Positions 27,313-29,380 of a stretch of DNA of 64,000 bases are shown here, piece after piece. The position numbers were made by a program, and so were the translations under genes. Source of the DNA: an uncultured Clostridia bacterium. Lineage in GTDB: Bacteria; Bacillota; Clostridia; Oscillospirales; Ruminococcaceae. The DNA lies in the NCBI GenBank assembly GCA_944387915.1, contig CALXGT010000037.1, positions 1-64,000 on the forward strand, in the 5' to 3' direction. The first letter of the stretch is position 1, and each line of letters begins with the position of its first letter. Under the pieces are notes generated by a model. That model was not told the origin of the DNA. It did not search any database and was given only the letters and a program-made list of their open reading frames with translations.

Positions 27313-27324
27313 TTGCGGAAAAGA

Positions 27325-27360
27325 AAAAGGCCCTCTATCTTTAAGATAGGGGACCTTTTT
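27325..27360 (-). terminator. Terminator behind the acyl-CoA synthetase gene
   Basis: An interrupted stem, AAAAGG.CCC.CTATCTT with its partner on the other side, ends in a T run on the reverse strand just behind the stop codon. Confidence 0.75.
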
Positions 27361-27361
27361 C

Positions 27362-29023
27362 TTATTTCTTATCCGCGATTTTTTTCCGAAGGGCGGTTCT
27401 CGTAATTTTACCGGAAGTGGTTTTGGGCATTTCGTCTAAGTATTCAATCACCCGGGGGTACTTATAGGGAGCCGTCATTTTCTTAACGTAATCTTGAAGC
27501 TCCTTGGTAAGCTCGGGCGTTCCTTCATATCCTTCTCTCAGTACGATCATCGCGCAGACCACCTGACCCCGGATGGGATCGTCCCGGCCGATAATGGCGG
27601 ATTCCTTGACGGAAGGATGGGTATTGAGGACGCTTTCAATCTCAAACGGCCCAATGCGGTAACCGGAGCATTTGATCATATCGTCGTTTCGTCCTACATA
27701 CCAGTAATAACCGTCTTCGTCTTCGTAAGCAATGTCGCCGGTATGGTAAACGTCATCGTAGTTGCGAAGGATGGTTCCGTCCGGCTGCATATACCCTTCC
27801 ATCAATCCTAATACGTTTTTCTGGCTCTTTAATCCCCGCATCACCACTTCGCCGGGCTGGCCCACTTCGCAGGGATTTCCCTCGTCGTCAATAATGGCCA
27901 CATCATAAAGGGGAGAAGGTTTTCCCATAGAACCGGGATGCACCTCGCACCATTCAAAGGAACAGGTGATGGGGGTGGTTTCGCTCTGGCCGAAGCCTTC
28001 GTGGATAGAATGTCCCGTCATATCCAAAAACGACTGGTTTACCGCGGGAGAAAGGGGTTCACCGGCGGTGGAGAACCATTGAATGGAAGAGATGTCTTCT
28101 CCCTTTAATCCGTCCCGGAGAAGGAAACGGTACATGGTGGGAGGAATGCAGAGGGTGGTAGGCCGGCAAAGCCGCATCGCGTCAATGAGCCCCTGGGAGG
28201 AGAAACGAGCGGGGTCGTAACCTAAAATCGCCGAACCGCAAATCCACTGTCCGTAAATGTTGCCCCAGCCGAATTTCGCCCAGCCGCTGTCCGCCTGGGT
28301 CAGATGAAGACCGTTGTTTTTTACATTTTGCATATAGCGGGCGGTGGTGATATGGCTCAAAGGATAGGTGCGGGTATGCGCCACCATTTTGGGCATTCCC
28401 GTGGTGCCCGAGGTAAAGTAAAGAATAAAGAGATCGTCGTTATTTAAGGTGGGATACTCCTCTAATGCGGGGGATTCCAAAATGCCCTTCGTAAGGGAAA
28501 GCTCCCCGGGAAGATCGTCGGTGTAGAGAATGTTTTCCAAAGAGGGGCATTTTTCCTTCAGATTTTTCACCTGGTCGATCACGAAGGGATCGTTGAGCGC
28601 TAAAACCATCTTGACGTTAGCGGCGTTGAGCCGGTAGGTGAGATCCTTTTCCCGAAGCTGAATGGACGCGGGGATCACCACCGCACCCAAACGGTGGAGC
28701 GCCACGGCACAGATCCAGTACTCCCATCTCCGGCGAAGCAGGGTCAATACCCGGTCGCCCTTTTGGATCCCCAGGGAAGCAAAATAGTAAGCAGCCTGCT
28801 TGGATAAGATGGAGATATCCCGGAAGGTAAATTCCTTTAAGGAAGAAGGCCCGCTGTCGTCCAGATAGCAAAGCGCCCGCTTTTGGGGCTCCTCTTTTGC
28901 CCAGACATCCACAATATCCCGGGGAAAATCAAAATTTTCCGGGACATGGATGGTGAAATTTTTCTTAAAATCCTCGTAGCTTTCAAAATGTTCTCTCGGA
29001 AGATACCGGCTTAACAGTTCCAA
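27362..29023 (-). CDS. AMP-forming acyl-CoA synthetase (medium/branched-chain type)
   Basis: A 553-residue adenylate-forming ligase that activates a carboxylic acid to its CoA thioester. The P-loop is YFTSGTTGMPK (about 203-213), the A5 motif is GFGQSETT, the adenine-site/hinge motif is YHTGDIAYEDEDGYYWYVGR and the catalytic lysine is in TSGKITRTALR near the C-terminus. The pattern is closest to acetyl-CoA synthetase-like/MACS enzymes. It begins with TTG after AAAGGAGCGACAAAA. The leader is a T-box riboswitch, so expression responds to an uncharged tRNA. That suggests a job in amino-acid supply, for example activating a branched-chain or aryl acid for reductive carboxylation; this is inference. 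Confidence 0.92.
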   Translation of the reverse strand: MELLSRYLPREHFESYEDFKKNFTIHVPENFDFPRDIVDVWAKEEPQKRALCYLDDSGPSSLKEFTFRDISILSKQAAYYFASLGIQKGDRVLTLLRRRWEYWICAVALHRLGAVVIPASIQLREKDLTYRLNAANVKMVLALNDPFVIDQVKNLKEKCPSLENILYTDDLPGELSLTKGILESPALEEYPTLNNDDLFILYFTSGTTGMPKMVAHTRTYPLSHITTARYMQNVKNNGLHLTQADSGWAKFGWGNIYGQWICGSAILGYDPARFSSQGLIDAMRLCRPTTLCIPPTMYRFLLRDGLKGEDISSIQWFSTAGEPLSPAVNQSFLDMTGHSIHEGFGQSETTPITCSFEWCEVHPGSMGKPSPLYDVAIIDDEGNPCEVGQPGEVVMRGLKSQKNVLGLMEGYMQPDGTILRNYDDVYHTGDIAYEDEDGYYWYVGRNDDMIKCSGYRIGPFEIESVLNTHPSVKESAIIGRDDPIRGQVVCAMIVLREGYEGTPELTKELQDYVKKMTAPYKYPRVIEYLDEMPKTTSGKITRTALRKKIADKK

Positions 29024-29065
29024 TTTTGTCGCTCCTTTTTCTATGATACCTGCTATGCAAATGCT

Positions 29066-29346
29066 TCAAAATAAAAAAGCCATTCGCCCATTGATTAGGA
29101 CGAATGGCTTCGTGTTACCACCTAACTTCACGCAAAAAATGCGCCTCAGCCGCCACAGGATACCCGATGGCGTTTCCTATTATACGGGAGGAGACCCGTC
29201 GAATCCTACTTGGAAACATTCCGTTCAGTTCGCAGCTCCAAGACTACGTTCCCCGATCCTTTCGCGAAACCTTACACCAGCCGGTTTCTCTCTGCGCCGT
29301 CCAAACCGAGTACTCCTTCTCTTCACAGCCTTTGCATATTCAGTTT
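29066..29346 (-). ncRNA. T-box riboswitch leader
   Basis: On the reverse strand the leader has Stem I with the AGTA/GAA loop-E pair (GGAGTACTCG on the 5' side, CGGGGAACGTAG on the 3' side) and TTGGAGCTGCG closing it, then a Stem III-like hairpin, the T-box TTAGGTGGTAACACG, and a terminator stem AAGCCATTCGTCC / GGGCGAATGGCTT with six T residues. The specifier region reads GAACGTAG: GTA (Val) or CGT (Arg) are the possible readings. The antiterminator bulge TGGT calls for a tRNA ending ACCA, which fits tRNA-Val and not the tRNA-Arg(ACG) of this window, whose end is GCCA. The leader fills most of the 373 bases between its promoter and the synthetase start. Confidence 0.92.
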
Positions 29347-29351
29347 CTATC

Positions 29352-29380
29352 ATCTTAGCACGATGTTTTTTCTTTGTCAA
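29352..29380 (-). promoter_or_regulatory. Promoter of the T-box/acyl-CoA synthetase transcript
   Basis: Reverse strand TTGACA (29375-29380), 17-base spacer, TAAGAT (29352-29357). Confidence 0.85.

Follow-up and report, generated by a model that had tools for sequence, protein, structure and literature searches.

The window analysed here, a 64,000-nucleotide stretch of DNA from an uncultured Clostridia bacterium, carries a T-box leader that runs directly into the gene of an AMP-forming acyl-CoA synthetase. We consider it probable, from the sequence comparisons set out below, that this synthetase activates isobutyrate under valine control and that the product continues to valine through 2-oxoisovalerate:ferredoxin oxidoreductase (VOR) and the aminotransferase IlvE, the enzyme being one of a set whose sisters serve isoleucine and leucine. 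An isobutyrate-to-valine reading had been proposed in an earlier note on this DNA, and it gains support from the missing ketol-acid reductoisomerase (KARI), from the presence of VorB and IlvE, from the isoleucine and leucine T-box sisters and from the gene clusters of relatives.

How might a T-box come to supply valine? T-boxes generally work through an uncharged tRNA that pairs with the specifier and the bulge, allowing transcription. We envision that uncharged tRNA-Val(UAC) pairs with the GUA specifier while its ACCA end pairs with UGGU, that the antiterminator then forms and that transcription proceeds into the acyl-CoA synthetase gene. The enzyme would turn isobutyrate, presumably from neighbouring microbes, into isobutyryl-CoA, which VOR would reductively carboxylate to 2-oxoisovalerate, and IlvE would aminate this 2-oxo acid to valine in the living cell. 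The sister under an isoleucine T-box is predicted to use 2-methylbutyrate and, less surely, the sister under a leucine T-box isovalerate. Because VOR is reversible, its presence gives no direction. Conceivably, the synthetase might run catabolically while amino acids are fermented and use branched acyl-CoA to gain ATP, as AMP-forming ligases are reversible in principle, but by T-box logic an enzyme that degrades valine would hardly be expected behind a leader induced by starvation, and we regard this direction as highly improbable.

The proposed precursor pairs are those of isoacid reductive carboxylation in the rumen: in the available portion of PMC7356843, isobutyrate is named as a precursor of valine in rumen fermentation, 2-methylbutyrate as one of isoleucine and isovalerate as one of leucine. 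That rumen bacteria form branched amino acids from isoacids has been known since the 1960s and 1970s through Allison and co-workers (as cited in PMC7356843). In contrast to that work, as represented by the citing paper, we propose genes and an RNA control specific to each amino acid. On balance, we lean slightly towards a broader proposal, namely that the order encodes the substrate of each branched-acid ligase in RNA, with paralogues for valine, isoleucine and leucine and with valine on two branches, that a shortage of the matching amino acid is needed for an isoacid to be salvaged, and that KARI-free genomes obtain their branched-chain amino acids mainly through this set. A T-box specifier would then predict the amino acid served by an otherwise anonymous acyl-CoA synthetase and thus yield a substrate hypothesis for each class. 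The set would also mark, at the genome level, bacteria with a possible dependence on the isobutyrate, 2-methylbutyrate and isovalerate of their neighbours.

The T-box leader and its target gene

A complete T-box, with promoter, Stem I carrying AGTA and GAA, T-box and terminator, had been claimed from the letters alone, together with a suggestion to run the Rfam model over the reverse strand. Consistently, the covariance model RF00230 matches minus-strand positions 29093-29335 with 101.5 bits (E 3.1e-21; gathering 93), model positions 1-219 of 219 are all covered, and the single elements could be located, all on the minus strand. A promoter-like site of the sigma-70 type (TTGACA-17-TAAGAT, 29352-29380) is followed by the AGUA (AGTA) specifier-loop motif of Stem I (29311-29314), which is invariant in eight aligned leaders, and by GAA, which precedes the specifier GUA (29245-29247). 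The T-box bulge UGGU (TGGT, 29117-29120), assigned by reading, by the covariance model and by tRNA ends, is expected to partner a tRNA with 3' ACCA; an intrinsic terminator hairpin of 14 pairs with a subsequent T run (29076-29111) and a ribosome-binding site read from the sequence (AAGGAG, 29032-29037) complete the region. Since a likely intrinsic terminator lies 3' of the synthetase gene as well (27323-27358, minus strand, read by eye), the transcription unit looks monocistronic.

One promoter-like site and one terminator-like hairpin were each found where 0.4 were expected in shuffles, and these counts by themselves are weak evidence; the hairpin energy is -23.3 kcal/mol (z -6.7). A minimum-energy fold of Stem I by itself does not beat shuffled sequences (z 0.60), and the antiterminator, which lies within the covariance-model match, is barely above them as an isolated 31-nt piece (z -0.69). 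We accept the leader structure because of the covariance-model match and of covariation, not because of a minimum-energy fold.

With its complete architecture, specifier, UGGN bulge and terminator, the leader is an ordinary member of the T-box family (RF00230), and the novelty is the set of target genes: the usual targets are aminoacyl-tRNA synthetases, classical amino-acid pathway genes or transporters, whereas here it is an acyl-CoA synthetase. In the open-access literature, we found no paper that joins T-boxes to acyl-CoA or ferredoxin-oxidoreductase; because two main T-box surveys fall outside that scope, we make no claim of priority. The available part of PMC2700814 places a T-box on leuA only, the term 'CoA' is absent from the available part of the T-box database (TBDB) paper (PMC7778990), and neither 'CoA ligase' nor 'CoA synthetase' occurs in the main text of an RNA-regulon survey (PMC3766115).

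Identity of the specifier

The earlier note had left the specifier as GTA or CGT; of these, GTA stands (29247-29245) and CGT falls. We aligned the window leader with those of seven relatives whose synthetases are 54.5-65% identical. GUA and the G following it are invariant in all eight leaders at a mean column identity of 62%, and the base 5' of GUA is C in the window leader and A in the other seven. The consensus fold shows two-sided changes in 6 of 6 pairs of the helix above the specifier loop and in 1 of 4 pairs of the one below it; counted from the loop's 3' end, GUA takes up bases 2-4. This is the position to which the TBDB rule gives priority, according to the portion of PMC7778990 at hand.

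A switch that senses tRNA-Arg through CGU would read a triplet that overlaps GUA in the window leader alone, and a tRNA-Arg(ACG) is indeed encoded at positions 89-165 of the window. Conservation excludes this specifier, because the A before GUA in 7 of 7 other leaders abolishes CGU and keeps GUA; moreover, tRNA-Arg(ACG) ends in GCCA, whereas tRNA-Val(UAC) of the same genome ends in ACCA. That the TGGT bulge fits tRNA-Val and disfavours tRNA-Arg, as had been argued before, thus agrees with the tRNA ends, but the argument holds weakly because a G-U wobble is possible. Together, we give the arginine switch a negligible probability. Valine specificity is supported by the invariant GUA, by the ACCA end of tRNA-Val(UAC) and by the same GUA on the genome's own rqcH-valS leader.

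The other leaders of the genome, read by eye under one rule, served as controls. The genome, given as 98.92% complete, has 14 Rfam T-box matches. Seven readings agree with the downstream proteins: pheS UUC, metS AUG, rqcH-valS GUA, trpS UGG, alaS GCC, thrS ACC and a TrpB-like gene UGG. The tyrS leader reads UAC and its protein, cut by a contig end, matched 0 families; the leuA leader reads CUG and its protein was identified as LeuA. Against the rule, the aspS leader (L008) gives AAC, an Asn codon, as could be expected if this AspRS charged tRNA-Asn as well, and a symporter leader (L001) is ambiguous. On the rqcH-valS locus, the valine T-box precedes an RqcH/NFACT-like gene, then valS (L017:7758-12193, contig C64), and this likely ribosome-rescue factor seems to share control by valine starvation.

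The synthetase and the pathway genes of its genome

The leader had been said to run into an AMP-forming acyl-CoA synthetase (ACS), and the open reading frame bears this out: it encodes 553 residues from a TTG start (27362-29023, minus strand), with PF00501 (AMP-binding, 209.2 bits) and PF13193 (AMP-binding_C, 76.7 bits) both above cut-off. We predict an isobutyrate--CoA ligase. The best PDB match is 3etc (560 bits across residues 2-548), which the PDB table gives just as an AMP-binding protein and which we take to be MacS of Methanosarcina acetivorans, an enzyme favouring 2-methylbutyrate. MacS is an archaeal protein, and MacS-type enzymes can be broad in substrate; within the GWxKxxW motif, a Gly of MacS aligns with Ala 249 of the window enzyme. 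Among curated families, the top NCBIfam model is MbcS (NF047394), a short branched-chain acyl-CoA synthetase. The score of 387.8 bits lies far below the equivalog cut-off of 850 and rules out membership, so the substrate cannot be taken from the family.

MbcS of Staphylococcus aureus activates 2-methylbutyrate and isobutyrate and serves branched fatty acid synthesis, according to the accessible part of PMC10026030. As MbcS is the nearest curated family, it is conceivable that the window enzyme makes isobutyryl-CoA to prime the branched fatty acids of the membrane, and that valine starvation induces it because valine is the source of the usual primer. Two observations speak against that use, namely that the valine T-box synthetases go with the absence of KARI and that some T-box synthetases of relatives sit with VOR and IlvE genes (see below). 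We consider the primer explanation unlikely, although the valine and primer uses may coexist.

Four PF00501 proteins were found in the genome, and three of them, including the window enzyme, stand behind T-boxes. One sister is an HTH-cupin-ACS fusion behind an AUC (Ile) specifier (L015:13080-15362), the other a TIM-barrel-ACS fusion behind CUG (Leu). The N-terminal HTH and cupin fusion, present here and in relatives, places a regulator-like head on an enzyme. The fourth protein is PaaK-like (387 bits, under the PaaK cut-off of 646) and belongs to an iorA-iorB-PaaK-like cluster (L111:4684-8356, contig C3) in which iorA is above cut-off; the contig has no T-box match. Judged by its genes, this cluster would be the aromatic counterpart of the same chemistry, leading from an arylacetate to an aromatic amino acid.

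KARI was not found in the genome (0 matches) in a search that was positive in 14 of 14 control genomes. The sole IlvD-family protein found falls short of the curated cut-offs for dihydroxy-acid dehydratase, and its neighbour is an aldolase-like gene, as read by eye. The steps that our preferred isobutyrate-to-valine route calls for have candidates: a four-gene VOR-like cluster has a VorB of 547.4 bits (cut-off 399), with beta and gamma subunits below their cut-offs, and IlvE is present with 493.8 bits (cut-off 307). LeuA stands under a leucine T-box although the sole PF00330 protein found is a hydratase of another family (L019:2567-4201; L256), so that LeuA would act without LeuC.

Related synthetases across the order

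Leaders were sought up to 700 bases upstream of 110 loci (80 + 30) related to the window synthetase. A real leader was present at 12, with GUA in every case; L031 closely resembles L114, the window's own gene, and L036 equals L115, hence ten leaders are distinct. A motif match at L050 proved to be a false leader, and at 97 of the 110 loci, all at or below 54.1% identity, these 700 bases contain no leader. When 98 loci were scanned over their whole length, a leader turned up in two (L094 and L106), both reading AUC by eye and lying further upstream.

An order survey of 245 genomes, in which Ile-type and Leu-type proteins were searched at 1e-100 and partial matches counted, gave 166 genomes with an Ile-type protein, 135 with a Leu-type protein and 117 with KARI. 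Among the best 30 Ile-type loci, 24 leaders were found by motif and three more by Rfam; 26 read AUC and one (L155) was undecoded, its region L223 reading AUC by a codon-blind motif, whereas L149 and L159 have no leader by motif or Rfam. The best 30 Leu-type loci gave 18 leaders, 16 of them Leu by rule and two (L181, L182) CUC by eye; at the other 12, neither the motif nor Rfam at its gathering threshold gives a T-box. At L172, the Rfam match belongs to the next gene, whereas the leader of L172's own gene reads AUC, and it was this match that led to the discovery of tandem valine copies.

We examined 20 cluster regions chosen for several closely spaced synthetase matches, a selected rather than a random sample. 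The leaders of fused synthetases, and of these only, were read with the codon-blind motif, which was written after seeing these leaders; of the seven leaders that a simple triplet rule had misread (TGA, GGT, AGG, AGT, ACG, TTG, ACT), it settled L206, L208 (4250) and L221, and it also settled the leaders which that rule had missed. One fused ACS stands behind AUC in 20 of 20 regions. The tandem fused copy present in 18 regions has GUA in 15, GUC in two and no leader in one, which makes valine the reading in 17 of 18, as GUC for GUA keeps valine. Leu-type genes have a CUC leader in 13 of the 20 regions, nine by rule and four by eye (L208 at 11155, L210, L212 and L223, the remaining misread leaders); no Leu-type leader was seen in the other seven, of which L216 and L217 hold no Leu-type gene.

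Among the eight regions with listed ORFs, VorB-like ORFs occur by sequence in six (L205, L206, L207, L214, L218, L222) and IlvE-like ORFs in four (L204, L206, L215, L222), so that L206 and L222 have both; in L206, the sole region tested with HMMs, VorB and IlvE exceed their cut-offs. With ligase, VOR and aminotransferase ORFs in the same regions, the three proposed steps are neighbours in some genomes. In L206 (11504-16212) and similar clusters, the leucine T-box leads into a diverged LeuA-like gene, accompanied by genes for a TIM-barrel-ACS fusion and an amidohydrolase. Our simple scheme does not explain the LeuA-like gene, and we propose the leucine branch less surely.

Is the synthetase set linked to the loss of KARI? 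KARI is present in 1 of 23 genomes with a valine T-box synthetase (6 window-type, 17 tandem) versus 116 of 222 others (Fisher p 3e-6), and in none of the six window-type genomes alone versus 117 of 239 others (p 0.03), in tests that treat related genomes as independent, ignore phylogeny and incompleteness and draw on hand-compiled lists and a chosen tandem set. It is kept in 21 of 94 genomes with a full-length Leu-type protein and, among the matches listed, in 15 of 83 with a full-length fused protein. Since 47 of the 128 KARI-free genomes are without a Leu-type or full-length fused synthetase among the matches listed, the synthetase set is not the sole answer to KARI loss.

A valine switch might also control an enzyme whose main substrate is another acid, such as 2-methylbutyrate, propionate or a mixture, in other words a general branched-acid ligase. 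A sequence below the MbcS cut-off and the breadth of MacS-type enzymes would suit this explanation. However, the genome has separate synthetases under isoleucine and leucine T-boxes, and consistent differences between the fused valine and isoleucine copies are confined to six columns, of which four lie close to the presumed acyl pocket of MacS. Two of the six, 249 and 252, lie within GWxKxxW and presumably adjoin pocket residues. We therefore think a general ligase quite unlikely and retain isobutyrate as the predicted main substrate. Ala occupies column 249 in 10 of 10 members of the window's class and 17 of 17 of the fused valine class, and Gly in 24 of 24 isoleucine copies (L094 and L106 left out); because 45 of 51 rows labelled as T-box-free also have Ala, this residue is weak evidence.

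In a quick tree built from 122 synthetase rows, whose labels were given partly by class, the window's class forms a single clade (support 100); the fused valine class lies elsewhere, and starred branches with Ile-type and T-box-free enzymes separate the two. The valine T-box thus sits on two branches of this ACS tree, by two gains or by one old gain and losses. A T-box-free relative of the window synthetase, in a Ruminococcus record (L054), has a TIM-barrel-ACS fusion gene directly 3'.
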